This document shows positions 28,610 through 45,274 of a DNA stretch of 46,868 bases, piece after piece. The number at the start of each line of letters is the position of its first letter. Position 1 is the first letter of the stretch. Both the position numbers and the translations under genes were made by a program. The stretch comes from Betaproteobacteria bacterium (GTDB lineage Bacteria > Pseudomonadota > Gammaproteobacteria > Burkholderiales > Ga0077523). The notes beneath the pieces were generated by a model that worked only from the letters and a program-made list of their open reading frames with translations, was not told the origin of the DNA and searched no databases. The stretch covers positions 1 to 46,868 of the forward strand of contig JANXYG010000085.1 of assembly GCA_025350245.1 (NCBI GenBank), written 5' to 3'.

Positions 28610-28610
28610 C

Positions 28611-28642
28611 GGCGTCGAACCATCTCGGCGTCGAACCATCTC
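28611..28642. repeat. 16-base perfect tandem repeat
   Basis: GGCGTCGAACCATCTC occurs twice head to tail immediately after the response-regulator stop codon. It is a short local duplication of no clear function. Confidence 0.8.
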
Positions 28643-28696
28643 CCTGTCATCCGCCGCGGCAAAAGCGCGCCGACCTTCCCGGCCCGGCGCGCGTCC

Positions 28697-29890
28697 ATGC
28701 AACCCGACTCCCCCGACGCCATGAATCCACCACGAATCGCTGCGCGGGCCGACGCCAGTCCCGCGCGCCGCCGGTCCGCCGGCAACGACGAGGAGGAGGA
28801 ATGCATCCTCGTCCTGCAAGGCGGTGGCGCGCTCGGCGCCTACCAGGGCGGTGTTTTCGAAGCGCTGTGCGAGTCGTATCGCGAACCGACGTGGCTCGCC
28901 GGCATCTCGATCGGCGCCATCAATGCCGCCCTGATCGCCGGTAATCCGCCCGGCGCCCGCACCGCCCGGCTGCGCGAGTTCTGGGATCTGGTCAGCGCGT
29001 CCGGCGGGCTGTATGCGTTCGTCGCGGATGAGTCGGTGCGCGAGACCCTGAACGATGCCAGCGCGGCAAGCGTGCTGTTGTTCGGCGTTCCGGGATTCTT
29101 CGTGCCGCGTGTGCCGGCCGCGCCGTTTCAACCTCGTGGCACGCCGGCGGCGATCAGCTACTACGACACGGCGCCGTTGCGGCAGACGCTCGAGCGTCTG
29201 GTGGATTTCGATCGGATCAACTCGGGTGCCACCCGGTTATCCGTCGGCGCGGTCAACGTGCGCACCGGCAACTTCGCGTATTTCGACTCGGCCAGCCAAC
29301 CCATCGACGCGCGCCACGTCATGGCGAGCGGCGCGCTCCCGCCCGGATTTCCGCCGGTCGAGATCGACGGTGAACACTACTGGGATGGCGGCCTGGTCTC
29401 GAACACACCGCTGCAATACGTGTTGGACCGGCCGGGCACGCGCCGTCGCACCGTGTTCCAGGTCGATCTGTTCGCCGCGCGCGGCGCACTGCCGGCCACG
29501 ATGGCCGAGGTGACGGAGCGGGAGAAGGACATCCGCTTCTCCAGCCGCACGCGACTCAACACGACCAATGAGCTCGACCGGCAGTCGATCGCCCAGGCGG
29601 CACAGCGGCTGCTCGCCAAGCTGCCGGCGGCGCTGCGCAACGACCCCGATGCGCTGGCACTCGCGGCCCTGCGCGGCGAGAGCGCCGTCGACGTCGTGCA
29701 CCTGATCTACCGCAGCAAGCACTACGAAACGCAGGCCAAGGATTTCGAGTTCTCGCGCCGGTCGATGCTGGAACACTGGGAGGCCGGCCGCACGGACATG
29801 GCTCGCACGCTGCACGATCCGCGCTGGGCCAACCGTGGTGCGGACCGGTCCGGCGTGCGAGTGTTCGACCTGACCGCCGCGCCGGCATGA
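28697..29890 (+). CDS. Patatin-like phospholipase
   Basis: A 397-residue lipid acyl hydrolase with a Ser-Asp dyad. LQGGGALGAYQGGVFEAL is the oxyanion loop, GISIG places nucleophile Ser71, and HYWDGGLVSNTPL gives the Asp. The C-terminal 110 residues extend beyond the patatin core, as in members with a DUF3734-type tail. The start is uncertain: ATG at 28697 or 28721, neither with a clear ribosome binding site. The residues before 30 are low in complexity. No signal peptide is seen. Its stop overlaps the start of the next gene (ATGA). It may act on membrane lipids or storage polymer granules. Confidence 0.88.
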   Translation: MQPDSPDAMNPPRIAARADASPARRRSAGNDEEEECILVLQGGGALGAYQGGVFEALCESYREPTWLAGISIGAINAALIAGNPPGARTARLREFWDLVSASGGLYAFVADESVRETLNDASAASVLLFGVPGFFVPRVPAAPFQPRGTPAAISYYDTAPLRQTLERLVDFDRINSGATRLSVGAVNVRTGNFAYFDSASQPIDARHVMASGALPPGFPPVEIDGEHYWDGGLVSNTPLQYVLDRPGTRRRTVFQVDLFAARGALPATMAEVTEREKDIRFSSRTRLNTTNELDRQSIAQAAQRLLAKLPAALRNDPDALALAALRGESAVDVVHLIYRSKHYETQAKDFEFSRRSMLEHWEAGRTDMARTLHDPRWANRGADRSGVRVFDLTAAPA

Positions 29891-30540
29891 CGCGATTCAT
29901 CGCGCCGTTCCGCGCCCGGCCGCGACTGGTCGTGTCGATGATCGCGGGCGTGGCCGTGACCGTGTTCCTGCCTGGCACGCAAAGCATGGTGACCCGCGGT
30001 CTGTTCGGCTGGAACGTGGCGGTGTGGCTGTACCTGATCCTGGTCGCGGCGATGATGCATCGTGCCGATCACAACCGCCTTCGGCGCGTGGCGCAGGCCC
30101 AGGCCGAAGGCGCCGCCGTCGTGCTCGGCGTCGTCATTCTGGCGGCCGTCGCGAGCATGGCCGGGATCGGGGTCGAGCTGGCGGCGGCCAACGTGCCGGG
30201 CGCGCCGCACGCGCTGCCCCATGTGCTCTTCGCTCTCGCCACCGTCGCCGGTGCGTGGCTGCTGGTGCCGACCATGTTCGCCCTGACCTACGCGAGCAGG
30301 TACTACCGAACGGCGCCGGCAAGCGGCCTGACGTTTCCGGATACCGAGCCCGGTTTCAAGGCGCACTACGGCGACTTTCTCTACGTGGCGTTCACCATCG
30401 CCGTGGCCGCCCAGACCGCGGACGTGAGCATCTCGACCGCATCGATGCGGCGGCTGGTGCTGCTCCAGTCGGTGCTCGCGTTCGTCTTCAACACCGCGAT
30501 CCTGGCATTGACCGTCAATATCGCGGCCGGCATGTTCTGA
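29887..30540 (+). CDS. DUF1345 integral membrane protein
   Basis: A 217-residue multi-pass membrane protein. Hydrophobic segments are near 15-32, 42-57, 77-97, 110-135 and 190-215, so four or five helices are likely. GDFLYVAFTIAVAAQTADV is the conserved region I associate with the DUF1345 family, for which no function is known. ATG at 29887 overlaps the stop of the phospholipase gene by four bases, so the two are translationally coupled and may work together at the membrane. Confidence 0.82.
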   Translation: MTRFIAPFRARPRLVVSMIAGVAVTVFLPGTQSMVTRGLFGWNVAVWLYLILVAAMMHRADHNRLRRVAQAQAEGAAVVLGVVILAAVASMAGIGVELAAANVPGAPHALPHVLFALATVAGAWLLVPTMFALTYASRYYRTAPASGLTFPDTEPGFKAHYGDFLYVAFTIAVAAQTADVSISTASMRRLVLLQSVLAFVFNTAILALTVNIAAGMF

Positions 30541-30599
30541 GCATCCCCGGCGCGGCCACGATTCGGCCGGGCAAGGCGTCGTGAACCTGCCGCTGCGAT

Positions 30600-30615
30600 C
30601 GTGACCGCGGTCACG
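30600..30615. promoter_or_regulatory. CGTGAC-N4-GTCACG palindrome, site 3
   Basis: CGTGACCGCGGTCACG is perfectly symmetric, with a further half-site CGTGACC at 30622. It lies about 150 bases upstream of the stress-type membrane protein gene. Interval 30541-30767 has no other feature. Confidence 0.5.
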
Positions 30616-30767
30616 CGACATCGTGACCATCGGTAGCTGCTTTCGATCCCGGTGCCCGATAGCCTTCGATCATGGCCCGGCCCGCGAGTCCTCATGCCGC
30701 GCGTGGACAGTGACCGAGCGCCTGGCCGTGCAGCTTCCCGATAGCCGACCCGAGAAAGGAAACGATC

Positions 30768-31367
30768 ATGGATACGATCACGACGTATGCGACCAAGACC
30801 AACATCGCCGTTGCCGTGTTCGACCGGCACCCCCAGGTGGAAGTCGCGGTGAGAGCGCTGCAACGCGCCGGTTACTACATGAGAAAAATCTCGATCATCG
30901 GCAGGGTCAGCGAGAACCGGGATGGCGTCGTCGGATTTCTCAGCACCGGCTACCGGTCCAGGATTTTCGGCAGGCATGGCGCCCTGTGGAGCGGCTGGAT
31001 GGGCGTCCTGGTCGGCTCCGCCATGATGTTCGTTCCGCTGGTCGGTCACGTCGTTGTTCTGGGCCCGCTCGCTTCCACCCTGCTTCGCGGCATTCAAGGC
31101 GTCGTCGCGGAGGACGGCGTTAGCCCGCTTGCCGTTGCATTGATGGCGACCGGAATATCGGAGGATTCGGTGCTGCGCTACCAAGCGGCGCTCGAGGCCG
31201 GCAAATTCGTGCTGGCGGTGCACGGTGACGCTGAGGAGGTCGAGCGTGCCTACCGGCTCCTCGATGGCTCGGGCTTTTCCTCGTTCGACCGCCACGCGAC
31301 CGAAGCAGAAATGAGGCACATGGTTCACGATGATCGGCAGCGGTTCGAGTCGCGGCCGGTGTCCTGA
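30768..31367 (+). CDS. Stress-type membrane protein with YflT-like N-terminus
   Basis: A 199-residue protein. ATG at 30768 follows AAAGGA with an 8-base gap. The N-terminal part (NIAVAVFDRHPQVEVAVRAL and GYYMRKISIIGR) resembles the short alpha/beta domain of general-stress proteins of the 17M/YflT type. A central hydrophobic stretch, GWMGVLVGSAMMFVPLVGH, with glycine-rich flanks probably inserts into the membrane. The C-terminal part (KFVLAVHGDAEEVERAYRLL) repeats the domain pattern. Its last 43 bases overlap the 3' end of the opposing transporter gene. A role in stress response is inferred from resemblance only. Confidence 0.7.
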   Translation: MDTITTYATKTNIAVAVFDRHPQVEVAVRALQRAGYYMRKISIIGRVSENRDGVVGFLSTGYRSRIFGRHGALWSGWMGVLVGSAMMFVPLVGHVVVLGPLASTLLRGIQGVVAEDGVSPLAVALMATGISEDSVLRYQAALEAGKFVLAVHGDAEEVERAYRLLDGSGFSSFDRHATEAEMRHMVHDDRQRFESRPVS

Positions 31368-32554
31368 ACCGCCCTCTTGCGCACTGCCAGATACACGCTC
31401 GCCGTGATCGTGCCGCACAGGCCGATCGCCGCGCAGAACATCGCCAGGCTGCCGAAGCCGAAGTTGCCGATCAGCCAGCCGCCTACCGCCGATGCGCCGA
31501 GCCAGCCCATGCTCGCCGTGGTCACGTTCGCGCCCAGCACCGCGCCGCGCATGTCGTCTGGCACGCCCGAGAGCAGCGCCATCAGCGATGGACGGCCGAT
31601 CGCGTTGAAGAACGAATAGCAGAAGCCCAGCCCCACCGAGATCCACAGCCCGGCAGGCCATGCGAGCAAGGGCAGTGCGAGCGCTGCCGTCAGGAGCGAT
31701 GCGACGGCGAAGGTGCCGGCGCGATTGCGCACGCGATCGGCGATGCGCCCGCCGATCACGCTGCCGATCACGTTGCCCAGTGCCACCAGGGCCAGGCAGA
31801 CGGCGAGCTGCTTGAGCGACACGCCGTAGCTGGTTTGCAGGAAGGTGGCGAGGTACACCGTGGTTGCCGCGAAGCACAGGCGCTCGGTGGCGCCGGCGCC
31901 GAGCAACAGCAGCAGATGCGGCTGCAACAGGCGGCGCCAGGGCACGCCACCACTCGCATTGCCGGCTGCCTTTTTCGTGTCGCCGGGCCGTATCTGCCAC
32001 CACAGCAGTACCGCCACCGAGATGGCGAGGATGCCGTGAGTGGCGGCGGCACCCCGCCAGCCGCCGAAATCCCCGACGAATGCCATCAGCGGCGCGCCCA
32101 GCAGCAGCGACATCGACTGCCCGGTCATCACCCACGACAGTGCGCTCCCGCGGCGCTCGATCGGCACCCGGTCGGCCACCGCCGCGAACACCGTGCCCAT
32201 GAATGCGCCACCACAGATGCCGGTGGCGCATTGCCACACCAGCGCCTCCGTGAAGCTGCCCGACTGGCTGAACCCGAAACGCGCCAGCGCCAGCATCGCC
32301 ACCGAACCGATGATGATCGGCCGGCGTCCGATACGATCCGATGCCGAACCCGCGAACAGCGACGACACGCCCCAGAACACCGCCTGGATCGCGAGCAGCG
32401 TCGCCACCGAGCCCAGGTCGCGATGGAAGTCCGCGCCGATCGCCCGCAGGAACGGCGCCAGCGAACTGCCGGCGGTGGTGATGACGAAAGTGGCGAGGCT
32501 GGCGGCGGCGAGCAGCGTGCGCAGGCCGGCTTCGGGGTGGGAATCGGAGGTCAT
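31325..32554 (-). CDS. MFS transporter
   Basis: A 409-residue major facilitator with about twelve hydrophobic segments. The loop SASDRIGRRPIII between helices 2 and 3 matches the family signature, and a related GGRIADRVRNRAG occurs between helices 8 and 9. The length is normal. It may export a drug or metabolite, or import a substrate; the group cannot be told. Its 3' end overlaps that of the stress protein gene tail to tail by 43 bases. The 32555-32848 interval upstream holds a promoter region and an inverted repeat but no gene. Confidence 0.9.
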   Translation of the reverse strand: MTSDSHPEAGLRTLLAAASLATFVITTAGSSLAPFLRAIGADFHRDLGSVATLLAIQAVFWGVSSLFAGSASDRIGRRPIIIGSVAMLALARFGFSQSGSFTEALVWQCATGICGGAFMGTVFAAVADRVPIERRGSALSWVMTGQSMSLLLGAPLMAFVGDFGGWRGAAATHGILAISVAVLLWWQIRPGDTKKAAGNASGGVPWRRLLQPHLLLLLGAGATERLCFAATTVYLATFLQTSYGVSLKQLAVCLALVALGNVIGSVIGGRIADRVRNRAGTFAVASLLTAALALPLLAWPAGLWISVGLGFCYSFFNAIGRPSLMALLSGVPDDMRGAVLGANVTTASMGWLGASAVGGWLIGNFGFGSLAMFCAAIGLCGTITASVYLAVRKRAVQDTGRDSNRCRSS

Positions 32555-32778
32555 GGACGAAGCGGGGCGGGAGGCAGCGACATCGTACTGGGTAAGGGAA
32601 GGGGTGCCTTCCTCGCATCAGGTCGAGCGACCGACGGCGTCAGCTGTTGGTAAACTTCTCGGCATCCGTGTGGGACATTTCCGGACATGCTTCCAAATTC
32701 GTCTATCGCGGTGGTCGATCCTGGCAAGGTTCGAGACTGCCAGACCGAAAAGTGGTGTTTTGAGCCAAAAAGTGAAGG

Positions 32779-32841
32779 GTGACGAGTGAGCCACGACCCT
32801 CCCACGGTAATGGTGGAGAGTGACCCTTTGTCACTCGTCAC
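32779..32841. terminator. Inverted repeat after the FAD oxidoreductase gene
   Basis: GTGACGAGTGA (32779-32789) pairs with TCACTCGTCAC (32831-32841), an 11-base perfect stem with a 41-base loop. It lies eight bases beyond the stop codon of the leftward operon. There is no T-run, so rho-independent termination is uncertain; RNA stabilisation is also possible. Confidence 0.4.
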
Positions 32842-32848
32842 GCGCCGT

Positions 32849-34897
32849 TCAGGACGTGATGATGCCCTGATTCAGCGGGCAGCCCAGTATCGTATTCGCC
32901 GCCTGAATGCCGGACCACACGGCGGCTTCGATGCAGCCCGCGTTGTACCCGTTCTGGATCCAGTCCCCGGTGATGAGCAGGTTCGCAAAGCCCGATCCGT
33001 TCGCGGGCAGTCGATATTTCGCGGTGCCGATGAGCGCTTGCACATAGCGCTCGGATGGATCCACGTTCGCACGTGCATGCCTGTCCACCACGTCGCTTGC
33101 CGGTAAGCCACCCGGCCCCGCCAATGGCCACAGTGTCTGTATGTCGCTACTGAGCATTTTAGCGGCAGTGGCTTCCACGTGCGCCTTGGCCCGAGCGGGG
33201 AACCCGTCGTCGCTCTGATCGGGAATGCCACCGACCATTGGCCCGCAGAAGTAAGCGAGACTGCCTGGCCTGCTGCCGTCCCAGCTCTCGAAGCGCATGA
33301 TGTCGGTCATGTCTGCCCACGTGTCCAGCGGCTCCACCCAGGCGTCGAGGATCGGACTGGCCTCGCCGCAGCCCAGCTTTGCGGATTCACGCGTGATGCA
33401 CCACCCAAGCTGCTTGATGTCGCGCTTAAGCCAGAGCTGAAGCGACTGGGTGCTGATCGTTTTCACCTTCGCCACCATCTGCGCCCAGGCTGGCGATGCG
33501 GCGACCAGCTCTGCGCACAGATAGGGGACCGCCCCGAGTGAGATGCCGAACACCGCTACGTCGAAGTCCTTATCGGCCTCTAACGTCACCGGCTCCACGT
33601 CACGCCAAGCGGTCCAGAACGATTCCAGATCGGCCTTGCACGCACGCAGCGCATCGCCCTCGACCAATTGGTCGTAGCAGGGCTCGTTCGGCCAGCAAGG
33701 CAAGGGCAGGCCGTGGGGCGCGGCATCGACCATAACCGGCACGAGCGGTCGATAGGGGCCGGCCTTGACCGTGGCCTGCCGGCCCATGTGAATCCGCGCC
33801 ACGCGCGACTTGTCGGCAGAAAGCTCGAGGTTGGTCACCTTGTGGAAAAACTGAATGTCAACGCCACGCTTGCACAGCACTTCGTAGATCGGAGCGAAGA
33901 TGGTATCGCCCATTCCCGCTCTCATCTTGTAGAAGAACGAGCCTTTGAAGCTGAAGCACATGCGCAGGATGGTTCGCAGTGCCGGCGCCGCCGCGAAATT
34001 GGGCCGCCGCACGTCGCCGTCTTCATAAGCGAAGGCAAAGTTGTACATGCCGCGCAGCAAGGGATTCTGATCGAGATCGGAGATCCTCCACCCGCGGGCG
34101 TACTTGCTGAGCCAGCGGGCAAAGTCTATCTCCTCGAGTTTCTCCAGGTCTTCATAGCTTTTGATGGGCTCGGCCTTCAAGCCACGCAGGATCGTCGCCC
34201 CCATCCCTATCAGCAGCAGCAGGCGGCGCAGATCGAGGCTCAGCGTGCCGCTCTTGGCCAGATATTTCTCGATCAGTTCGATGAGCTGACTCAGCGTGAT
34301 GTTCAGCTGCGGTGCATACGCTTCGTCAGCGACGCTGGGCGCCAGCTCAGCGAGTCTGGTGCGGAGCTTGCACCCGGCCTCATCATTGGGCATGCTCAGA
34401 TCGAGATAGTGCTTCCAGTTGGCGTTGATCCAGGCGTACAACGCTGCAATCGTATCCCCCAGCGGGGGCACATTACCTCCACCCGGCTCGCCGGGATTCG
34501 GGGGGATGCAGAACATCCAGGGGTTCCACCGGTCGTCGACACGATCATTGACCCCGACATAGTTCTGCTGGGCGAAGGCCGCCTTCCAGGTGGGAATGGG
34601 CGAATCCGGCGGTCGCTGTGCTTCGCGATAGGCTTTCCGGATCAGCTGGAAGGCGTTCTCGTAGTAACCCAGCCAGATGTGCAGGCCGTGCTCGATGATC
34701 CGGTTGGTGGTGCCGGTGCGCCCGGCGGCTCCCTTGCCGCCCAGGCGCCAGCCGAGCTGATAGATGGTGATACTCTCGAAGTTGTCACGCCAGTTGGGGT
34801 GATCGGTGAGTTGCATGGCTACCGTGACCGCCGACACGCCGCCGCCCAGAATGACGATCCGCTTCTTCGCAGCGGGTGAGATGGCCTGCGCGTTCAT
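32849..34897 (-). CDS. FAD-dependent amine oxidase/desaturase-like protein
   Basis: A 682-residue flavoprotein. RIVILGGGVSAVTVAMQL near the N-terminus is a Rossmann dinucleotide motif, followed by YQLGWRLGGKGAAGR and EHGLHIWLGYY, as in flavin amine oxidases and phytoene-desaturase-like proteins. The C-terminal NLLITGDWIQNGYNAGCIEA is the second FAD-binding motif. The middle 350 residues are unlike the amine oxidases I know and may define the substrate. ATG at 34897 overlaps the stop of the upstream decarboxylase-like gene (ATGA), so the two are coupled and perhaps act on the same compound. No signal peptide is seen. Reaction unknown: desaturation, amine oxidation or isomerisation are all possible. 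Confidence 0.78.
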   Translation of the reverse strand: MNAQAISPAAKKRIVILGGGVSAVTVAMQLTDHPNWRDNFESITIYQLGWRLGGKGAAGRTGTTNRIIEHGLHIWLGYYENAFQLIRKAYREAQRPPDSPIPTWKAAFAQQNYVGVNDRVDDRWNPWMFCIPPNPGEPGGGNVPPLGDTIAALYAWINANWKHYLDLSMPNDEAGCKLRTRLAELAPSVADEAYAPQLNITLSQLIELIEKYLAKSGTLSLDLRRLLLLIGMGATILRGLKAEPIKSYEDLEKLEEIDFARWLSKYARGWRISDLDQNPLLRGMYNFAFAYEDGDVRRPNFAAAPALRTILRMCFSFKGSFFYKMRAGMGDTIFAPIYEVLCKRGVDIQFFHKVTNLELSADKSRVARIHMGRQATVKAGPYRPLVPVMVDAAPHGLPLPCWPNEPCYDQLVEGDALRACKADLESFWTAWRDVEPVTLEADKDFDVAVFGISLGAVPYLCAELVAASPAWAQMVAKVKTISTQSLQLWLKRDIKQLGWCITRESAKLGCGEASPILDAWVEPLDTWADMTDIMRFESWDGSRPGSLAYFCGPMVGGIPDQSDDGFPARAKAHVEATAAKMLSSDIQTLWPLAGPGGLPASDVVDRHARANVDPSERYVQALIGTAKYRLPANGSGFANLLITGDWIQNGYNAGCIEAAVWSGIQAANTILGCPLNQGIITS

Positions 34898-35841
34898 GAC
34901 GGTGCGCGCCACACTTCCGTGCAAGTATCGATCTGGAAGTCGAAAAGCGCCCAGTACGCTACCTCCACCGGTACCGGGCCGGCAACCAGGCCTAGGTCCG
35001 CGCGCAGCGGATGGCTGGCCCAGTCTTCGAAGAAGATCTCGTAGCGATGCAGATACACGCGGGCCGAGTGGAACCGAGTCATCCAGGTTGTGGTCATCTG
35101 AATCGACTGGAAGCACGCATGGTCCGGGTCGACCGCATCGCGAAACTGCTTGAGAAAGACCATCGGAATCGGCGCGGAGATCAGACCGAGCAATCGGTCC
35201 GCATCAAGGCCGGGCGCAGTATCCGCGCCGATGCCAAGCCGCTCCACCAGCGCCTTGACTAACTGGTCGAAGTCGCCCACTTCCTGGTAGGGCGTAGCGG
35301 AGGGGCTCCTGCCGCCGGTCGCGATGCGCGCCTCGAACAAGCGTGCCCGCTGCGCCTGGCAATCGGGACTCAGCTCCTTGGCCACCACCGCCTCGACATG
35401 CATGGCCTCCGGGGCGAGTGGGCCATCGGGAATTTCGAACCAGCCGAGCTCCTTGGGAAAGCCGTAGATCTCCCGTCCCATGGCCATGGCATAGGAACTG
35501 TCGACGACCATGTACGGGTGATACCAGAGCAGCTGCAAGCGTTTCCTGTCGAACACCAGCATCCACACCGCGCCTTCCTGCTCCGAGTACCAGCCGCGAT
35601 CGTGATCGGGCGGGTACTTGGCGTACATGCGTGCGAGCCGGTTGAACACGAACAGCACGTGCGCCACCGCCGGTACGAAGTCCTGGGTGCCGCTCGGCTT
35701 ATTCAGGTAGCGGTCGCAGATGGCCTGAAGCTTGGCCTTGTCGGCCTTCACCGCGAAGCCGAAGAACTGCACGCCTTCCGCAACGTACGGCGGCACGAAT
35801 ACCTGCTCGCCGCCTCTGGCAATGTAGTTGGGCTTGTCCAT
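34894..35841 (-). CDS. Acetoacetate decarboxylase-like protein
   Basis: A 315-residue member of the acetoacetate decarboxylase superfamily. GREIYGFPKELGWFEI (from 122) matches the Schiff-base lysine region: Lys130 fits the catalytic lysine, but the neighbouring lysine that lowers its pKa in true decarboxylases is Glu131 here. Such relatives often do aldolase or dehydratase chemistry or only bind ligand. Arg and Glu residues typical of the pocket (for example WYSEQEGAVWML) are present. It starts 58 bases after the cyclase gene and its end overlaps the flavoprotein start by four bases. Confidence 0.75.
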   Translation of the reverse strand: MDKPNYIARGGEQVFVPPYVAEGVQFFGFAVKADKAKLQAICDRYLNKPSGTQDFVPAVAHVLFVFNRLARMYAKYPPDHDRGWYSEQEGAVWMLVFDRKRLQLLWYHPYMVVDSSYAMAMGREIYGFPKELGWFEIPDGPLAPEAMHVEAVVAKELSPDCQAQRARLFEARIATGGRSPSATPYQEVGDFDQLVKALVERLGIGADTAPGLDADRLLGLISAPIPMVFLKQFRDAVDPDHACFQSIQMTTTWMTRFHSARVYLHRYEIFFEDWASHPLRADLGLVAGPVPVEVAYWALFDFQIDTCTEVWRAPS

Positions 35842-35899
35842 GTTGCCGGCCCTCCGATTGGTTTGATGCTCGACGTCCGATCCTGCGTCAGGCTTGCAT

Positions 35900-38800
35900 T
35901 CAACTGTGGCCCGGCATCACCTCGAGCGCGGCGCGAGCCGCCGTCAAGTCCGGTGTCGTCGCCCCCGCCGGATAGCGCGCGACAAGCGCGGCCAGCGGAC
36001 TGCCGCGCAGCGTATCGTGTCCCTGGCGCCCCAGCGCGAGGTGCAACGCCGTCGCCGCGCGCAGGCGCGGCGCCAGAACAGCGGGGGCTTGCGGCAGATC
36101 GACGGCCCGGCGATAGCAGGCGATTGCATCGGCCGGATGCCGCGCCTCCAGCAGCGCACCCTTGATCCGCCACAGTGCGCTCTCCGATACCCCCTCCTTG
36201 TTGGCGCGAACGGTTTCGAATGCGCGATCGAGGCTGGCCTGAGCCTCGTCCAGGCGACCCGCCATCGTCAGGACCTCGGTGAGCAAGCCGTAGAAGTGCG
36301 GCAGGCTCACGCCGGCACCGGCAGCCGCGTAGCGCGCGATGCCTGTCTGCATCTGGGCGATCCCTTCGTCGACCTTGCCTGCATGGGCCATGCCCCAACC
36401 GCTCACGATGACACCGGCTGCCAGCCAGTACTGCTGCTGCTGCTCGAGGCTGAAGGCGACCAGATCCTCGGCCGCCGCTCGCGCCTGTTCGGGCTCGTTG
36501 CGATAGGAGTGCAGCAGCGTGCGGAACGCCTTCGGCCAGGCCGTGGTGAAGGGATGATTGAGCGGTTCGGCCGTACGCACGGCGGCTGCGAGCGCCGCCG
36601 TGGATTCGTCAGGGCGCCCCAGCATCCACAACGTGAAGCTCAGATAGCACTGCGCAGTCACACCCGGGTCCTGACCGAACAGCAGCGCGTGGCTAGCGTG
36701 TCGCACCGGATCGTACAGCGCTGCCGCCGTCTGCAACTCTTCTCGCGCTGCCTCCACATCACCCAGCCAGTAGTGGCTGTTGCCGAGCGAATAGCGCGCT
36801 TCGATCAGGAAATGGTCGTTGCCCGTGAGCTTGCCCAGCGCCAGCATTTCCTCGGCGTAGCGCCGCGACAACTCGAGTTCGCCGCGTACCAGGAAGAACA
36901 CCCAGGACCCGGTGAGCACCGGGAACGTGTCGGGGTCCCCGGATGCCGCCTCGCACAACACACGGCCGCGCTCGAACACCCCACCGACTTCGGCGGCGGC
37001 AAAGCCGGCGGTGGCGATCAGCGCCGGCCCGAGCACGCTGAGCAATCGCAGCTCACGCTGCCGGCGCTGGTCGACGTCATCGCTCTGATCGAGCAGCGCA
37101 CGCCCGGCACGCAGATGCGCCGCTGCCTCGATGTTGGCGGAGCGGGCAAAGGCGCTCATCCCGGCCGCCAGCCAGTAGTCGATCGCTTTGTCCGCCAAGC
37201 CCCCGAGCTGACAGTGGTGCGCGAGCAGCTCAGGCTGGTTGGCAACCGTCTCCGGGGACGCGGTCTCCAAGGTCACCACGACCCGGCGGTGAAGCTCCTG
37301 CCGCACGCGCCGCAACAGCGACTCGTAGGCAGCCACCTGCACCAGCGCATGCTTGAACTCGTACAGGGTGTGCGGCGCGCTGCCGCCGGCAAACACCAGA
37401 CCCGCGCCGATCAGGCGCTCCAGCCCGCCGCGCACTTCGGCTTCCGCCACGTTGGCAATGCCCAGCAGCACCGAGTACTGAAAGCGCCTGCCGATCACCG
37501 CCGCCCGCTGCGCCAGCTCCTTGGCCGATCCCAGCCGGTCCAGCCGCGCCATGAGCGAGTCCTGCAGACTGGTCGGCACCTGCGTCGGTGTGGGCGTGGG
37601 TGTCTGTTGTTTGTCGGCGCCCGATTCCAGCATAGCCTTGGTCAGTTCCTCTGCGAACAGCGGGATGCCATCGGAGGTGCGCGCAATCTGCTCCGCGATC
37701 GCCGGCGACAGCTGCTGCTTGAGGGTCACGCGGGCGATGAGCGCTTTCAGGTCTTCCCCCTGCAAGCGCTCCAGTTCCAGGTTGCACGACACATGTTCGT
37801 TGCCCCACGCGGGCGTGAACTCTGGCCGGCAGTTCATCACCATCATCACCGAATCGGGTATGCGCTCTTCGATGAGCCGTCTGACCAGCTCCAGCGTGGT
37901 CGCATCCGCCCATTGCAGATCCTCCAACACGATCAGGTGCGGCCTGGCGGCTTGGCGTACCAGCGCGAGCAGCAGCTTCAAGGTTTCTTCGCGTAGCAGT
38001 TCGGGACCCATGGGCGGGAGCGCATAGCGCGGCTCGAACGCGATCCCCATCAACGAAGCGATCAGCGGCACTGCCGCGGCCAACTCGACCTCGCGCTTGT
38101 TCAGGAACAGCTCCAGGCGATCGAGCCGATCGTCCGCGGTATGCGCATCCGCCAGGCCCAGCAGCCTGGTAAGCGCCTCGACAATCGGATGCAGCGTGGT
38201 GTTGAGGTGATACGGAGAGCATTCGCAATCGGTGAGCGTCGCGTCCCCGCGCAGGGCATCCTCGGCAATCAGGCGCGCCAGGCGCGACTTCCCGATGCCG
38301 GCTTCCCCGCGAATCAATACCACCCCGGAGTCGCCCGCGCACGTTTTTCGCCACAGCTCGCGCAACTTCGCGAGCTCTTCGCGCCGCCCGACGAACGGTG
38401 TCAGGCCGCGTGCCGCCGAGGCATCGAAACGCGACCGCGTGACTTTATCGACGACCTGGAAAAGCTCGATGGCCTCCGAGACGCCTTTCAGCTTGTGCGT
38501 ACCCAGCTCGACGAAACTGAAGAAGCCTTCCACCAGACCGTGCACCGTATCGCTCACCACGATGGTGCCGGGTGCTGCGAGGCTTTGCAGCCGAGCCGCG
38601 ATGTTGGGCGCTTGACCCAGCGCGAGGTCGTCCTTCGTGGCGTCGGGGCCGACCCCGCCCGCCACGATCATGCCGGCGTGAATTCCCATGCGCACTTCGA
38701 TCGGCCGCCCCTGCGGACCGAGCCCGGCGTTGTGCCGCTGGACGGCAGCGAGGATCGCCTGGCCCGCCAGGATTGCCCGCCGCGAGTCGTCCTCGTGGGC

Positions 38801-39100
38801 TGCGGGATAGCCGAAGTAGAGCAGAATACCGTCGCCGAGATACTGCGCCACATGGCCTTCCAAGGGCTTGATCGCGGCGACCGTCAGATCGTGATACTCC
38901 TTCAGGAGATAAGCGTACTCCTCCTGCCCGAGCGCCTCGCACAGCCCGGTCGAATCGATCAGGTCGCAGAACAGCACGGTGAGGTGGCGCTGCTCGGCCG
39001 ACCTGTGGATCGCGGCAGAGGCAGGGGAAAGCGGTGCGCCGCAACTCCCGCAGAAGCTGGCTTCGACCACCTGGGCACCGCAGGAAGAGCATTTCACCAT
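35900..39100 (-). CDS. Class III nucleotidyl cyclase fused to an AAA/STAND-type ATPase and TPR-like repeats
   Basis: A 1066-residue multidomain signalling protein. ATG at 39100 is preferred, with GGAG 9 bases upstream; ATG at 39115 would add five residues. Residues 4-20 are a zinc ribbon (CSSC and CGSC). A class III adenylate/guanylate cyclase domain spans about 37-215, with metal Asp46 in LFCDLIDST, Asp90 in QYLGDGILLYFG, and Asn166/Arg170 in NIAARL. An ATPase domain follows with Walker A GEAGIGKS (265-272) and Walker B-like LIVLEDLQWAD. A Thr-Pro repeat linker (QQTPTPTPTQVPTS) leads to a C-terminal alpha-solenoid of TPR-like helices. All key cyclase residues seem present, so it should make cAMP or cGMP. 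It lies inside an operon with metabolic enzymes. Confidence 0.9.
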   Translation of the reverse strand: MVKCSSCGAQVVEASFCGSCGAPLSPASAAIHRSAEQRHLTVLFCDLIDSTGLCEALGQEEYAYLLKEYHDLTVAAIKPLEGHVAQYLGDGILLYFGYPAAHEDDSRRAILAGQAILAAVQRHNAGLGPQGRPIEVRMGIHAGMIVAGGVGPDATKDDLALGQAPNIAARLQSLAAPGTIVVSDTVHGLVEGFFSFVELGTHKLKGVSEAIELFQVVDKVTRSRFDASAARGLTPFVGRREELAKLRELWRKTCAGDSGVVLIRGEAGIGKSRLARLIAEDALRGDATLTDCECSPYHLNTTLHPIVEALTRLLGLADAHTADDRLDRLELFLNKREVELAAAVPLIASLMGIAFEPRYALPPMGPELLREETLKLLLALVRQAARPHLIVLEDLQWADATTLELVRRLIEERIPDSVMMVMNCRPEFTPAWGNEHVSCNLELERLQGEDLKALIARVTLKQQLSPAIAEQIARTSDGIPLFAEELTKAMLESGADKQQTPTPTPTQVPTSLQDSLMARLDRLGSAKELAQRAAVIGRRFQYSVLLGIANVAEAEVRGGLERLIGAGLVFAGGSAPHTLYEFKHALVQVAAYESLLRRVRQELHRRVVVTLETASPETVANQPELLAHHCQLGGLADKAIDYWLAAGMSAFARSANIEAAAHLRAGRALLDQSDDVDQRRQRELRLLSVLGPALIATAGFAAAEVGGVFERGRVLCEAASGDPDTFPVLTGSWVFFLVRGELELSRRYAEEMLALGKLTGNDHFLIEARYSLGNSHYWLGDVEAAREELQTAAALYDPVRHASHALLFGQDPGVTAQCYLSFTLWMLGRPDESTAALAAAVRTAEPLNHPFTTAWPKAFRTLLHSYRNEPEQARAAAEDLVAFSLEQQQQYWLAAGVIVSGWGMAHAGKVDEGIAQMQTGIARYAAAGAGVSLPHFYGLLTEVLTMAGRLDEAQASLDRAFETVRANKEGVSESALWRIKGALLEARHPADAIACYRRAVDLPQAPAVLAPRLRAATALHLALGRQGHDTLRGSPLAALVARYPAGATTPDLTAARAALEVMPGHS

Positions 39101-39158
39101 GACGTCACACTCCATTTACGCAGGTGCAGCCGTTCAGGGCTGCGGGCCGCGATGCCGC

Positions 39159-40046
39159 TCAGGGCTTCTTGGCGCAGCCGATGCCGTAGACCCAACTGCC
39201 CCGGCGCAGCGCGCGATACTGGTGCTGTGCACCCAAGACATTGGCATGCGATACATCGCTGCGCAAGCGCAGCTTGTGCAGCATCCGACTGATCGGCACC
39301 CCCGCCAGGGACAGCATGTAGAGTCGCCGCAGAGAGCGATGCATGTTGGCGGTGACGTCGCGCACTTCGAACTGCGCCAGCCCGGCCTCCAGGGCGTGCC
39401 GAGCGTGCTCCTGCGCGGTATCGAGATCCGACAGCATCCAGCTGCTCAGCCATCGACCCAGCAGCGCTTCGTCCGCGGCACGCAGCGGGCGCCGCGCTCG
39501 CATGTATTCCCCGATCACCAGCCGACCACCCGGCCGCAGCACCCGTGCGCTTTCACGGTAGAACGCCGCCTTCTCCCGCGCGTGGCACACGCTCTCGAGC
39601 GCCCAGACCACGTCGAAGCTGGCATCGGGAAATGGCATGGCGGTGTAATCCGCCTGCTTGACGGTGACAGCGTGCGACACACCGCGCGCCGCCGCGAGAC
39701 GGCGCGCGCGCTCCACTTGCGTGCGCACCGGGGTAATCCCCACCACCGTCGCGCCGCGCTGCTCGGCGAGCCAGACGCTGCTGCCGCCGATCCCGCACCC
39801 GGCATCGAGCACCCGCTCGCCGCGATGAATGGCGGCGATGTCGGCGAGCACCCGGTTGGTGTTGAGCAACGATCCCGCGTGCGAGCGCCGCTGCCCGGCG
39901 TCGTGGTACCCGAAGTGGATCGCGTTGTTCTCACCGTTGAGCCACATCCAGCGGTAGTCCCACCGGGTACCGTCGTAGTACCTGATGACCGACTGCAGCT
40001 GTTCTTGGTGTTGCTGCTCGTTGCTCATTAGACTGGTTATGCCCAT
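39159..40046 (-). CDS. SAM-dependent methyltransferase
   Basis: A 295-residue class I methyltransferase. VLDAGCGIGG (79-88) is the SAM-binding motif I, ITPVRTQVERARRLA gives motif II and MPFPDASFDVVWALE motif III. The N-terminal YYDGTRWDYRWMW with AIHFGYH resembles small-molecule C- and O-methyltransferases of the sterol, tocopherol and geranyl diphosphate group, which place the substrate over this lid. The start is uncertain between ATG 40046 and ATG 40028, neither with a good ribosome binding site. It is first in a four-gene leftward operon and 58 bases upstream of the cyclase-ATPase gene. Terpenoid or quinone methylation is a guess. Confidence 0.85.
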   Translation of the reverse strand: MGITSLMSNEQQHQEQLQSVIRYYDGTRWDYRWMWLNGENNAIHFGYHDAGQRRSHAGSLLNTNRVLADIAAIHRGERVLDAGCGIGGSSVWLAEQRGATVVGITPVRTQVERARRLAAARGVSHAVTVKQADYTAMPFPDASFDVVWALESVCHAREKAAFYRESARVLRPGGRLVIGEYMRARRPLRAADEALLGRWLSSWMLSDLDTAQEHARHALEAGLAQFEVRDVTANMHRSLRRLYMLSLAGVPISRMLHKLRLRSDVSHANVLGAQHQYRALRRGSWVYGIGCAKKP

Positions 40047-40229
40047 GTCCTGGAAAGCCGGTTAGTCGATGAAAATACACCCTTCCCCTAGCAGGGGCAA
40101 GCGACATGACCACGACGGTTCTGGGCGAAACCGGCTCACAAACAGCAAGTGCAGCGCCGCTATTTGCGCGTCCGGTGCGGCGTGTTGGCGGGCGCCGGCG
40201 TCGGGGCGCTGCAGAACACCAACACCAGT

Positions 40230-40559
40230 TCACATGTTGCGAACAAGACGCAGGGTTGAAGGGTCGAGGTGAACAGCGCCGTGCCTGGCGGCGTCACGGA
40301 CGAACAGGCGGCTCGGGCGGGCGGAGCCCTGGCAGGTCGTGGCTTGGACCGCATCCTCGTCGATCAGCGTGGGCGGCAACATGCGGGGCGTGCCGTTGCG
40401 TCCCATCTCGGGTGCCTGGGTGTCGTCGCTCTCCGCGGCGAGCGCCGAGCCGGTGTTGGCGGCAACGGCAATGAGCAAGACAACGATGAGGTGCGTTGCG
40501 TTGATTCCGCTTTTCTTCGGGGATTGGGTGGAGGGCCCGCGTACGATGTTGGTGTTCAT
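40230..40559 (-). CDS. Small secreted protein of unknown function
   Basis: A 109-residue protein. ATG at 40559 follows GGGAG with an 8-base gap. A signal peptide with hydrophobic core IVVLLIAVAANTG ends ALAAES. The mature part is short, polar and contains one cysteine, no recognised motif. It is on the same strand as the methyltransferase, 183 bases upstream of it, with no gene between. Could be a genuine small periplasmic protein; coding status rests on the signal peptide and the ribosome binding site. Confidence 0.5.
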   Translation of the reverse strand: MNTNIVRGPSTQSPKKSGINATHLIVVLLIAVAANTGSALAAESDDTQAPEMGRNGTPRMLPPTLIDEDAVQATTCQGSARPSRLFVRDAARHGAVHLDPSTLRLVRNM

Positions 40560-40804
40560 GTTCGTTCTCCCGATGCGATCTGTTCAGTGGTTGGCCTGCT
40601 GCTCCTTCCCGAGGCGCCGTATTGCGTTGCGCGTCGAGTTGGTGCCATTCTGGAGATCGGGTCCGGCCAGCGCATTGCGAAATTGCCTGGCCGGCTGTGG
40701 GAAATTCACACTGAACTGCAGGAGGGGAGCGGAACGAACGCGGCAACGGGGGGGCCTCGTCAGGCCGGCGTGTTCCGCCCCGGTTGAATGGTGATGGCCA
40801 ACCG

Positions 40805-41449
40805 CTACCAGTGCGACGGGATCTTCTTGCGGATGACGATCCGCTTGTCTTCCATGTCGATGTACCCCCCGCGCGCCAGGTCGGTGAGGATGCGACTCAC
40901 CATCTCGCGAGAGGCGCCGATGCGGTTGGCGAGTTCCTGTTGTGTCGGACGAGGCTCGACTACACGCGTGCCTTGAACCTCGACCCCCAGCTCATCGAGA
41001 ACGCGCACGAGTCGGCCGAAGACGTCCAGCAGTGCCAGCGTCCGAACGCTTTCGGTGAGCCTGCGGACGCGTCTGGCCATGCCTTTCAGCAATTGCAAGG
41101 CCATGTCGGGATCTGCCGTGATGGTTTCCTGCATCAGCGACTTCTGCAGCGAAATGAGCTTGCACGGCTCCATGGTCGCTACCGACGCGGAGCGAGGGGT
41201 ATCGTCGAGGAGGGCGAGTTCGCCGAAGTATTCGCCAGGGCCCATGGTGGAAAGAACAACTTCCTTCCCTGCCTCGTCACTGAGATAGGCCTTGACCATG
41301 CCGGAAACGATCACGAACAGAGTACCCGCCTCGTCGCGTTCATTGATGATGATGGCACCCTTAGGGTAGGTGCGGGTCAAGGCTTGATCACTCAACCGTT
41401 TGATCTGAGCCTCGGACAGCCCTTCGAACAATGACACTTTGTTCAACAT
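40805..41449 (-). CDS. Crp/Fnr family transcription regulator
   Basis: A 214-residue regulator. The N-terminal cyclic-nucleotide-binding beta-roll is seen in GTLFVIVSGMVKAYLSDE and GPGEYFGELALLDDTPRSAS, which includes the phosphate-binding cassette. The dimer helix follows, then the winged helix-turn-helix PTQQELANRIGASREMVSRI. The GELALLDDTPRSAS cassette has the Glu and Arg-Ser of cAMP-type sensors, so it may bind a cyclic nucleotide, interesting given the cyclase gene about 2 kb away. It lacks the Fnr cysteine cluster. Start ATG at 41449 has only a weak ribosome binding site. Confidence 0.9.
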   Translation of the reverse strand: MLNKVSLFEGLSEAQIKRLSDQALTRTYPKGAIIINERDEAGTLFVIVSGMVKAYLSDEAGKEVVLSTMGPGEYFGELALLDDTPRSASVATMEPCKLISLQKSLMQETITADPDMALQLLKGMARRVRRLTESVRTLALLDVFGRLVRVLDELGVEVQGTRVVEPRPTQQELANRIGASREMVSRILTDLARGGYIDMEDKRIVIRKKIPSHW

Positions 41450-41506
41450 GAGATGTTCTTTCGACTTTCGACTGCTGGATTCTATACGCCCGGTCCCGAT
41501 CGGCCC

Positions 41507-41647
41507 ATGTCGAGGGGGGGCGCCGACAATTTCGGCACGCGCCCGATCCTTGTGAAGCAACTGGACTATGACCTGACTCCCACCGCCGGACTGGCGCTGG
41601 TGGGTCACTATCTCAACACCGTGTCGCCAGGGGATGGTGCGCGATGA
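41507..41647 (+). pseudogene. IS1380-family transposase N-terminal remnant
   Basis: A short frame reading NFGTRPILVKQ and YDLTPTAGLALVGHYLN, then stopping after GDGAR. From memory this matches the N-terminus of IS1380-type transposases, of which another part is found at the left end of the window. About 47 codons remain and nothing further of the element is recognisable. The 41450-41788 interval has no other gene. Confidence 0.45.
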
Positions 41648-41788
41648 CGAGTTCCCGGTAGCCGAGTGATGACACGGTCGCCGGTATATCGGGTGGCCGC
41701 TGTCGTGCCGAGCCGTGATCAACACATCTCCAGGCAAGCGCCGCACCGGTAAGACCGGTTGGAAGCCCGGCGTGTCAACGTCGAGAAT

Positions 41789-42114
41789 TCAGAACGCGTA
41801 CCCGACGCTGATCTGGAGGCCAGACACGGCAGGACGCACCAGATATTCCCGCCTGGTCGTGATGTAGAAGTATTCCGCACGCAGGAACAGGCCGGCATCG
41901 AAATCTCGCTGGAGGCCAAGGCCCACCTTGACCGCCGAGAAGCCCCGACCTGTCGATACGGTTATTCCAAGGCCGTCGCTGGCAGTGCCGGCGCCGTTAA
42001 GCCTTCCGGCACCAGCCCGAAGGAACAGCCGCCAGTGGTCGTCGAGATAAATGCTCGGCAGGAACGAGATGGTCCAGACCCGCTGTGCCGGGCGCTCGGC
42101 CCGCTGGCGGGAAG
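41789..42114 (-). pseudogene. Outer-membrane beta-barrel protein, C-terminal fragment
   Basis: Reading leftward from the end of the deacylase gene, the frame has alternating hydrophobic strands (RVWTISFLPSIYLDDHW, LFLRAGAGRLN, LFLRAEYFYITTRREYL) and ends LQISVGYAF. The terminal aromatic residue and strand pattern fit the last strands of an OmpA/opacity-type barrel, whose final phenylalanine is the insertion signal. There is no start codon, ribosome binding site or signal peptide, so only about the last 95 residues remain. The missing part was probably lost where the deacylase stop now lies. Confidence 0.5.
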
Positions 42115-43152
42115 TTAGCTGTGCGAGTACGGCCGCATCACCACACCCACCACATCGCCCTTGCGAACGCGGCCGGATCCAGGCGCCATCCAGACCAGTC
42201 CGTCGCTGCGATACTCGACCGGCATCGGCTCGCGCGCCCACTCCTCGATGAAGTGCAGGTGCCCGGCCAATTGGCCAGCCCGCACTTCCGCACCGGCGAG
42301 GTCCATCGGTTCGAACAGCCCGTCGCTCGGAGCGAAGACATATCCCGTGTGGTCGCGCACCTCCATGTGCCGGGTGCCGGGGTGGCCGTCGAGTTGCGAG
42401 GTGTCCGGAGTGCCATCGATCATGCTCATGCCCTTCAACACGTTCAGCAGCGCACGCTCCGCAATGCGCAATCCGTCCACACTCACCCGGCCGTAACCGC
42501 CCAGTTCCGACGAGATCGCCAGCACCCGGCGCCGCTCTGCCGCCGCGGCGAGCGTGCTGGTTTCGTCCACACCCGAGAACACGACGTTGTAGGGGGCGCC
42601 GAAGTTCTCGGCGAGCGTGAACGTCTGCTTCAGGATGTCCGGGTCGTCGGTGTGGTGCATGCAGGTGCTCAGCGCGGCCTCCATGGCGTTTCCGGCGGCA
42701 TGGATGTCCACCGACACGCCAACGCGCGTGAGGATCTCGGTGTCGATGAAATGCGCCAGCATCTGGCAGAAGCTGCCGCGCGGATCGCCCGGCAGGCAGC
42801 GATTGAAATCGCGACCGTCGAGGGGGCACATGCGCCGCCCCGCCAGCGCGGCCGGCAGATCCACGGCCGGCATGAGGATCAAGCGCCCGCGCAGGCTCTG
42901 CGGGTCCAGCCGACGTGCCAGCCGCGACACTGCGATCTGGCCTTCGTATTCGTCGCCGTGCACGCCGCCGGTGAACAGCACCGCCGGGCCGGGCGCGCCG
43001 TTGACGACGGCAATGGGAATCTCGATGGTCGACCACGCGCCACCGTCCCGCGATTGTGGTACTCGCAGATAGCCGATCTGCCGGCCAGGCCGGTCGAAAT
43101 CGAGGTCGTGAAAGATGCGGCTCTTCGGCGTGTCGACAGCAATGATCGTCAT
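42115..43152 (-). CDS. AstE/AspA-type zinc deacylase
   Basis: A 345-residue zinc carboxypeptidase-like amidase that removes an N-acyl group, related to succinylglutamate desuccinylase, aspartoacylase and the ectoine-degradation deacetylase DoeB. GGVHGDEYEG gives zinc ligands His65 and Glu68, SVDIHAAG gives His151, and DGRDFNR (112-118) binds the substrate carboxylate. A conserved Glu in SSELGG may be catalytic. ATG at 43152 follows AAGGA with a 7-base gap. No other ectoine gene is nearby, so substrate is open. Confidence 0.88.
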   Translation of the reverse strand: MTIIAVDTPKSRIFHDLDFDRPGRQIGYLRVPQSRDGGAWSTIEIPIAVVNGAPGPAVLFTGGVHGDEYEGQIAVSRLARRLDPQSLRGRLILMPAVDLPAALAGRRMCPLDGRDFNRCLPGDPRGSFCQMLAHFIDTEILTRVGVSVDIHAAGNAMEAALSTCMHHTDDPDILKQTFTLAENFGAPYNVVFSGVDETSTLAAAAERRRVLAISSELGGYGRVSVDGLRIAERALLNVLKGMSMIDGTPDTSQLDGHPGTRHMEVRDHTGYVFAPSDGLFEPMDLAGAEVRAGQLAGHLHFIEEWAREPMPVEYRSDGLVWMAPGSGRVRKGDVVGVVMRPYSHS

Positions 43153-43258
43153 CGCGGTGTCCTTGAGATGGGGCGGATCGGGGTGCGGGAAGGGTAGCAC
43201 CGCGCAGGCGAGGTGCCGGCGCCGGCAGCACGCGTCGTTTCAGCTATTTTAGCTATAT

Positions 43259-43286
43259 CAGACAAATTGTACCGATTGGCTATAAT
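43259..43286 (+). promoter_or_regulatory. Sigma70-type promoter of the antitoxin-toxin pair
   Basis: Minus 10 is a perfect TATAAT (43281-43286), and minus 35 CAGACA (43259-43264) matches four of six, spacer 16. AGCTAT occurs at 43242-43247 and 43251-43256 and GGCTAT overlaps the minus 10, giving spaced repeats that could bind the antitoxin for autoregulation. It is the most AT-rich spot nearby and lies 33 bases before the antitoxin start. Confidence 0.65.
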
Positions 43287-43318
43287 GCACGAAACAACCG
43301 GAGAGGGAGAGGCTTGGC

Positions 43319-43669
43319 ATGACCACGCTGACATTCCGCAATAGCCAGGGCGAACTGGTCGATCTCCCGACCGTCACCGCCAGCCGGTTCAAGAACGAGT
43401 TCGGTGCCAACTTCGAGAAGGCCGCCCTCGGCGGGGCAATCGCGATCACCAGGCACGATCAGCCCAAAGCCGTGCTGCTCTCCTACGCCGAGTTCGAATC
43501 CCTGGTCAAGGCGCGCTCCCCTGCTCTGGACGATTTGAGCGCGCAGTTCGACGGCCTGCTCGCGCGCATGCAGACGCCCAAGGCAAGAAAGGCGATGGCG
43601 ACCGCCTTCAACGCTTCACCGGCCAGCCTGGGCCGCGCGGCGGTCAAGGCGGCGGCCAAGAGGCGCTAG
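43319..43669 (+). CDS. Phd/YefM-type antitoxin
   Basis: A 116-residue antitoxin-like protein. The N-terminal 60 residues (VTASRFKNEFGANFEKAALG, then AITRHDQPKAVLLSYAEFE) follow the Phd/YefM fold, which dimerises on DNA and represses its own promoter. The basic C-terminal tail (KAAAKRR) and the helical part from 75 are where such proteins bind their toxin. ATG at 43319 has GAGAGG upstream. It is 34 bases upstream of a zeta-like toxin gene. Phd proteins usually pair with Doc or RelE-type toxins, so this partner is unusual. Confidence 0.85.
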   Translation: MTTLTFRNSQGELVDLPTVTASRFKNEFGANFEKAALGGAIAITRHDQPKAVLLSYAEFESLVKARSPALDDLSAQFDGLLARMQTPKARKAMATAFNASPASLGRAAVKAAAKRR

Positions 43670-43703
43670 GAACCAGCGGGCGAGGGGCGAAGCCAAAGCC
43701 ACG

Positions 43704-44339: not shown

Positions 44340-44342
44340 TCC

Positions 44343-44494: not shown

Positions 44495-44515
44495 TACTTG
44501 CGGTAGATTCCCCGC

Positions 44516-45243: not shown

Positions 45244-45274
45244 CCCGGGGAGGAGCCGGGTTGCCCGCCTCCGC

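Follow-up and report, generated by a model that had tools for sequence, protein, structure and literature searches.

The contig JANXYG010000085.1 of a Betaproteobacteria bacterium, a stretch of 46,868 bases from an assembly of ~4.0 Mb that is hereafter called the window, carries a run of four genes on one strand: a methyltransferase gene (MT), the gene of a class III cyclase with an AAA_16-TPR half, an acetoacetate-decarboxylase-like gene (ADC) and a flavoprotein gene (FAD). The core of this arrangement is the pair of FAD and ADC, not all four genes, and the cyclase is its partner; in other genomes FAD, usually with ADC, lies beside signalling genes of changing output in about ten phyla. The reading that is tentatively favoured, at somewhat less than an even chance, is that of a mobile two-enzyme unit which supplies a ligand to a swappable sensory partner. 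FAD and ADC would handle, one after the other, the same small molecule, which would be hydrophobic and probably isoprenoid-derived; the sensory part of the partner would respond to substrate or product, and the output domain would differ by lineage. For the window genome this would mean that the AAA_16-TPR half gates the class III cyclase domain, and that the cyclic nucleotide formed is read by a Crp-like protein encoded nearby. The genes concerned are the following; labels of the type L024 denote surveyed genome loci.

39159-40046, minus strand: S-adenosylmethionine (SAM) methyltransferase (MT), first gene of the run; PF08241 1.8e-24
35900-39100, minus strand: class III cyclase-AAA_16-TPR protein (STAND-type); PF00211 1.3e-14, AAA_16 (PF13191) 6.7e-25, TPR 7.5e-8
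34894-35841, minus strand: ADC-fold protein, 315 residues; PF06314 1.1e-8
32849-34897, minus strand: flavoprotein of amine-oxidase/phytoene-desaturase fold, 682 residues; PF01593 2.8e-8, PF13450 4.6e-6
40805-41449 (likely start 41449), minus strand: Crp-like regulator; PF00027 3e-23, HTH_Crp_2

An earlier note on this DNA had described four genes on the same strand, twice separated by 58 bases and once overlapping by 4 bases; the coordinates were confirmed, and Pfam supports each gene call. The cyclase starts at an ATG behind GGAG, leaving the 58-base gap to MT (the longest open reading frame (ORF) begins at 39115), the gap from cyclase to ADC is again 58 bases, and the ATG of the flavoprotein overlaps the ADC stop by 4 bases (ATGA), an ORF of 755 residues up to 35116 being merely the longest open frame.

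Linkage to signalling partners

Relatives of the flavoprotein were collected in a scan with a FAD alignment, one genome per species, from which the best 80 of at least 553 relatives were taken, a sample that leans to Oxalobacteraceae. Genes of unannotated loci were called by simple ORF choice, and domains were assigned with own profiles seeded from Pfam-confirmed examples or from window proteins, that of MT and several others being built from a single sequence; Pfam itself was applied only in places. The set of 89 loci omits L017, L018 and L086 (fragment or duplicates), and the set of 149 loci also omits L158, L221 and L222, which stem from the same genomes as L078, L056 and L034. A signalling gene of more than 350 residues lies within 3 kb in 107 of the 149 FAD loci, and in 84 of the 109 that have at least 3 kb of flank on both sides. 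When the loci are merged at 55% FAD identity, such a gene is present in 57 of the resulting 77 clusters (43 of 53 with enough flank); a STAND cyclase alone is the commonest linked cluster type, with 20 of 77, equal to the number of clusters without any partner. In the 89 loci, the 1.5 kb next to the core contain 0.248 signalling genes per kb and the bins farther out 0.065, 0.042, 0.055, 0.047 and 0.018 per kb, and 66 of these loci have a signalling gene of more than 450 residues within 3 kb.

A second sample was picked regardless of likeness to the window or its neighbours, with FAD matches in 4 of 397 other Pseudomonadota genomes and in 49 of 329 Myxococcota genomes (the L034 genome included). 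Of the resulting 44 loci, L158 among them, 4 are Pseudomonadota and 40 are Myxococcota regions, the latter taken down the E-value list with some preference away from contig starts. Thirty of the 44 have a signalling gene of more than 350 residues within 3 kb or between the core genes, at a density of 0.174 per kb within 1.5 kb and of 0.018, 0.011, 0, 0.042 and 0 beyond. Among all 55 Myxococcota loci listed (L034 genome omitted), the gene is found within 3 kb in 37, and in 22 of the 29 with enough flank.

Linked partners occur in Pseudomonadota, Bacteroidota, Chloroflexota, Myxococcota, Acidobacteriota, Cyanobacteriota, Planctomycetota, Verrucomicrobiota and Candidatus Rokuibacteriota, and a further linked locus (L100) is titled Eremiobacteraeota, which brings the total to about ten phyla. 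The partner may be a cyclase-AAA_16 protein, a Ser/Thr kinase-AAA_16 protein with or without GAF-cyclase or GAF-histidine kinase parts, a 7TMR-DISM-diguanylate cyclase (the lone partner in, e.g., L013, L067 and L068), a 7TMR-DISM-histidine kinase-receiver protein or, once (L097), an AAA_16 protein fronted by a sigma54 activator. On a quick tree of 92 FAD sequences, in which partners were counted to 5.2 kb and to which long-branch warnings apply, the partner type changes at least 11 times in coarse and at least 24 times in fine classification. What has stood of the conserved linkage suggested earlier for the four families is the position of FAD, usually with ADC, beside a signalling partner; MT is not constant, and the cyclase is one of several partners.

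The FAD-ADC pair across genomes

ADC was detected in 101 of the 149 FAD loci and is fused to FAD in 61, numbers that L167 and a few similar frames may inflate and missed divergent ADC domains may deflate; across several phyla the two are either neighbours or fused. A tblastn search on plasmids found ADC and FAD as adjacent genes in Azospirillum and Catenovulum and as a fusion in Qingshengfaniella, where the order on the plasmid (L022) is FAD-ADC, AAA_16-TPR adenylate/guanylate cyclase and Crp/Fnr regulator. The neighbour in Azospirillum (L020) is a kinase-AAA_16-GAF-PAS-histidine kinase, and in Rufibacter (Bacteroidota, L023) the flavoprotein gene has a divergently oriented kinase-AAA_16-GAF-cyclase gene on one side and, on the other, a gene without likeness to ADC. 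Two long frames were tried as new fusions and left unused as evidence: the additional part of the frame in L167 (1334 residues) looks like the FAD gene read in an overlapping frame, and no match was obtained for the additional part of the frame in L179 (1910 residues).

When the surveyed FAD loci are compared with the window, a single Bacteroidota contig (L024), with the genes in the same order, supplies the nearest relative of FAD (44% identity), of ADC (38%) and of the cyclase (39.6% in the best segment); the FAD value of 44% is also reached by L026 and L034 in another alignment. ADC matches were obtained in 4 of 59 other genomes among relatives of the window genome and in 2 of 368 others in a draw from its class, three of these matches (L013, L014 and L015) having ADC and FAD in one reading frame; none of 11 same-genus genomes matched, and a scan of genome contigs with ADC alone found nothing. 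Since all three proteins are closest on L024 and ADC was not found in the 11 congeners, the unit seems to travel together, and the comparison suggests that the FAD, ADC and cyclase genes move as a group.

It can be asked whether FAD-ADC only hitch-hikes in signalling-rich or mobile regions with no functional link to its neighbours. The lack of ADC in the window's congeners would fit this, as would the abundance of such cyclases: the family is large and often multi-copy, 57 of 398 Pseudomonadota genomes give a match at E 1e-60 when the window's own is counted, and none of 20 loci of close cyclase homologues (10-20 kb each, one own paralogue included) carries FAD or ADC. The last result agrees with the premise of the earlier note that cyclases of this sort usually stand alone rather than with such enzymes. 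Against mere hitch-hiking, which is accordingly regarded as very unlikely, signalling-gene density falls steeply with distance inside the same loci, the linkage recurs in 43 of 53 clusters, and the partner is a same-strand neighbour in some loci, for example the window, L024, L034 and L068.

The two enzymes

The AlphaFold model of the flavoprotein (pLDDT 89) has its best PDB fold match in rice phytoene desaturase (5mog, E 7.5e-18, TM 0.53 by query and 0.75 by target), with amine oxidases ranking close behind; a sequence search of the PDB with the FAD profile gave no match at E 0.001. The domain motif and the overall fold are shared with HpnE and with the phytoene and zeta-carotene desaturases (CrtP, CrtQ). 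FAD is, however, far under the cut-offs of these families, reaching 54.6 with the HpnE equivalog (cut-off 283.05) and 30.5 with the zeta-carotene desaturase equivalog (cut-off 622.15), and it is paired with ADC. Furthermore, it is ~200 residues longer than the matched desaturase structure, with helices at 146-254 in the model. Flavoprotein paralogues may also accumulate at one locus: three stand in a row in an Acidobacteria metagenome-assembled genome (L062, 5743-12118), and two flank one ADC in L019 (6629-12321).

The ADC-like protein scores 35.4 bits with PF06314, over the gathering cut-off of 29.8, and its predicted model (pLDDT 90) matches 3c8w, 3bgt, MppR and Swit_4259 in fold. With the ADC superfamily (ADC, MppR, Swit_4259 and the aldolase-dehydratase of Streptomyces bingchenggensis) it has in common the fold and the lysine motif GREx(Y/F)GFPK, which aligns with 3bgt and 3c8w. 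K130 in this motif, which we take to be the Schiff-base-type lysine, is present in 30 of 31 diverse aligned rows and in 26 of 26 sequences of the set used for the model. In true acetoacetate decarboxylase a second lysine beside the Schiff-base lysine lowers its pKa, and 3bgt and 3c8w have this second lysine (PKK). The corresponding residue is E131 in the window and Y, Q, E, G, S, A, T, F, M, V or R, never K, in the 31 rows. Because the second lysine is replaced, simple acetoacetate decarboxylation by the window protein is unlikely. It further departs from the superfamily by some 50-70 additional residues and by its flavoenzyme partner.

Metabolic neighbours and substrate

Polyprenyl synthetase genes, identified by Pfam in L160 and L178 and as relatives of these in L181, L218 and L219, are found near FAD, so that these loci of Pseudomonadota and Myxococcota possibly represent a terpenoid pathway. 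In four of the five (not L218) a saccharopine-dehydrogenase-like protein accompanies the polyprenyl synthetase. FadL/TodX channels are encoded near FAD-ADC in five loci (L016, L020, L076, L083 and L091), RPE65 adjoins the core in L019 and lies seven genes off in L099, an MpaB/Lcp oxygenase occurs in L025 (Pfam) and L056 (profile), and P450 was found in 2 of 113 neighbours scanned. TonB receptors stand beside the core in Pseudoalteromonas, Catenovulum and Aliiglaciecola loci. Taken together, the polyprenyl synthetase, FadL/TodX, RPE65, MpaB/Lcp and P450 neighbours suggest a hydrophobic substrate, probably isoprenoid-like.

The same surroundings invite a reading as an uptake and catabolism unit, in which an external hydrophobic compound would be sensed, imported by FadL or TonB proteins and degraded, the sensor being an inducer-responsive regulator. 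FadL/TodX in five loci, TonB receptors in three genera and a gene of the major facilitator superfamily (MFS) in the window are in line with it. The polyprenyl synthetase elsewhere, on the other hand, points to synthesis, and no degradative family stands out in the 25 commonest among the 113 neighbours scanned; import for degradation is thus considered improbable.

The cyclase partner

The cyclase domain of the window protein shows both metal-binding Asp residues and the transition-state Asn and Arg; of the purine-selecting pair, the Lys position is occupied by Gln and the Asp position by Asp. With these roles of the metal Asp, Asn/Arg and purine-selecting residues assumed, the domain appears to retain the residues of an active class III enzyme, its predicted product being cAMP or cGMP, which are indistinguishable on this basis. 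The best same-genus matches outside the window genome are only 36-37% identical, and the protein therefore seems to be without an orthologue in the genus.

A dedicated sensor clade of the linked partners was looked for and not shown, as an unlinked cyclase (L105) is nearly as close to the sensory half of the window protein. The sensory half of L097 is closest to unlinked cyclases; most other linked partners have their best match in other linked ones, in a comparison with a small unlinked set of the cyclase type only. Two known families share the architecture. The cyclase-AAA-TPR region of the TOMM kinase/cyclase fusion (TIGR03903) aligns over window residues 28-1013 with 517.5 bits; the window protein nevertheless stays under the cut-off of 705.75, has no Pkinase match and has ADC and FAD as neighbours. 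STAND regulators of the MalT type presumably use a similar AAA_16-TPR-like sensory architecture for small-molecule sensing, but with an LuxR-type helix-turn-helix output, where the outputs found here are a cyclase, a kinase or another domain.

A Pycsar-like anti-phage system using cyclic nucleotides was considered as well, in view of weak matches of the cyclase domain to the PADLOC PycC models (best 4.7e-17) and of a patatin gene ~3 kb off the run. The PycC matches, however, reflect the shared class III cyclase domain, and the partner is often no cyclase; a scan of 7 proteins yielded no Pycsar effector, ADC and FAD had no PADLOC match, and FAD had none in 50,697 phage records. With the likeness confined to the cyclase domain and no effector among the 7 proteins, this reading was rejected as extremely improbable.

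Cyclic-nucleotide readers and the direction of the signal

A protein that binds cyclic nucleotides (cNMP) lies within 6 kb of the core or inside it in 9 of 37 cyclase loci and in 1 of 112 others (Fisher p 1.3e-5, relatedness ignored); seven of the ten proteins thus detected had themselves served to seed the profile. Crp-like members of this group occur in the window, L022, L026, L159 and L193, and L194 has a kinase with a cNMP domain; the lone non-cyclase locus, L182, is cut by the contig end beside a kinase-AAA_16 fragment. In L198 (3536-4828, plus strand) and L199 (3579-4730, plus strand) a cNMP-binding domain fused to EAL was noticed near the FAD loci, possibly a case of cNMP control of cyclic di-GMP breakdown. 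The Crp-like protein of the window has an intact phosphate-binding cassette, GEYFGELALLDDTPRSA, if the motif used is, as we assume, that of the cassette. It has relatives of 57-58% identity in three congeners, around which no further protein of the window has a match in conserved order. Four same-genus genomes (L231, L232, L233 and L234) carry paralogous AAA_16-TPR cyclases tail-to-tail with Crp-like genes and no FAD or ADC match in the stretch, so that the pairing of cyclase and Crp seems to be a wider habit of the cyclase family. A search for CRP sites in 28001-46800 gave no 8/10 match ahead of MT; the two 8/10 matches in this range are at 30600 and at 41567, the latter upstream of the Crp gene. 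The earlier idea that the Crp-like regulator reads the cyclase product is consequently plausible: the clustering of cNMP proteins with cyclase loci and the congeneric cyclase-Crp pairs agree with it, the missing 8/10 site before MT does not.

The same observations bear on a serious, though less probable, alternative, according to which the sensor controls the enzymes: the partner would sense another cue, and its messenger would switch FAD-ADC through Crp-type transcription or directly on ADC. A Crp-like gene adjoins the cyclase gene in L022 and L026 and shares the locus with it in L159 and L193, the STAND partner in L097 carries a sigma54 activator, and in L182 and L200, from related myxobacteria, a cNMP domain is fused to ADC (Pfam: cNMP 1.7e-10 and 3.4e-11, ADC 1.1e-13 and 2.4e-13), a fusion that favours control of the enzyme. 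These two fusions are, however, 69% identical and hence represent one lineage, their cNMP cassettes lack the usual Glu, and the window run has no 8/10 CRP site ahead of it. Furthermore, the messenger of a diguanylate-cyclase partner would have no evident route to a single enzyme pair, and for this reason the placement of the enzymes upstream of the signal is favoured. A feedback loop would fit both the diguanylate-cyclase partners and the cNMP-ADC fusion.

Several results weigh against the preferred order of enzyme, ligand and sensor. Besides the cNMP-ADC fusions, which fit enzyme control better, and the seeding of the cNMP profile from the proteins it then found, 42 of the 149 loci (some on short contigs) have no signalling gene of more than 350 residues within 3 kb, L016, L164, L184 and L186 have none despite ample flank, and only 2 of the 4 loci in the Pseudomonadota sample have one. 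In three Massilia loci no ADC was detected with FAD, and the closest histidine kinase is 3.7-4.8 kb off. Ten further fusions that were tested show a weak ADC-like region or none that can be detected, and no lysine motif in it, each type of metabolic neighbour occurs in few loci only, and the TPR half of the window cyclase matches L024 first (40.7%) and an unlinked cyclase, L105, second.

Surroundings of the gene run in the window

Around the run, the following further features were recorded:

31325-32554, minus strand: MFS transporter, downstream of the run; PF07690 5e-48
40072-40100, minus strand: possible promoter before MT; TTGCCC (first base 40100), 17 bases, TATTTT (first base 40077)
40230-40559, minus strand: small ORF of 109 residues with signal-like N-terminus, between the Crp gene and MT

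The promoter candidate has 8 of 12 matches by sequence reading, is weak and falls under the threshold of the promoter scan. The Crp-like gene ends 758 bases upstream of MT and is probably its own transcription unit. At the other end, the MFS gene, possibly a member of the run, is 294 bases from the flavoprotein, with a weak terminator-like hairpin at 32779-32794 in between, a type of hairpin not commoner in the window than in shuffled sequence. Rfam gave no match at gathering thresholds (28000-46868).

MT shows a weak NCBIfam likeness to sarcosine/dimethylglycine and geranyl-diphosphate methyltransferases, all far under cut-off. A match to its profile lies within 4 kb of the core in only 5 of 149 loci, the window included, and MT was for this reason rejected as a core member; the clearest case is L216, where FAD-ADC, kinase-AAA_16 and MT are consecutive on one strand.

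The patatin-like phospholipase gene of the window (28697-29890, plus strand) has a weak likeness to CBASS phospholipase effectors; a patatin gene is also located ~3 kb from the flavoprotein in Rufibacter (L023). An ORF at 43704-44339 (plus strand) encodes a Zeta-toxin/AAA_33-like P-loop kinase, and one at 45275-46468 (minus strand) a carbonic anhydrase of the eukaryotic (alpha) type.

Relation to known systems and significance

The FAD-ADC pair with its partner resembles, by analogy, the logic of the Rpf systems, in which the enzyme product would be the ligand of the sensor. In RpfF/RpfC and RpfF/RpfR of diffusible signal factor signalling, as we understand these systems, one synthase type stands beside receptors of different output, either a hybrid histidine kinase (RpfC) or a cyclic di-GMP protein (RpfR), and an enzyme gene beside a sensor gene across lineages is likewise found for FAD-ADC. 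RpfF, however, presumably has a crotonase fold and makes fatty-acid signals, where a desaturase-fold flavoprotein and an ADC-fold protein occur here; no Pfam match of the RpfF crotonase type was obtained in the four proteins of the run. The partners of FAD-ADC are also more varied and include STAND cyclases and kinases. A more specific proposal is considered unlikely: that FAD-ADC synthesizes an isoprenoid- or apocarotenoid-like signal and is thereby a counterpart of LuxI or RpfF, which has spread horizontally over about ten phyla and been plugged into the receptor chassis of each host. The arrangement suggests that a small molecule is coupled to cell signalling in a manner not yet described; no such module was apparent in a literature search of titles and the beginnings of abstracts of openly licensed texts.

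A fixed enzyme pair with a repeatedly changing partner output is what one would expect if a signal synthase stood with its receptors, or if the enzymes were under unusually varied control. Many STAND cyclases and kinases and 7TMR-DISM receptors have no known ligand, and in either case the pair would provide a testable handle on what these proteins respond to. If the product is an isoprenoid signal, such bacteria of soil and water as Duganella, Janthinobacterium, Shewanella, Pseudoalteromonas and the myxobacteria would communicate by an additional chemical class.

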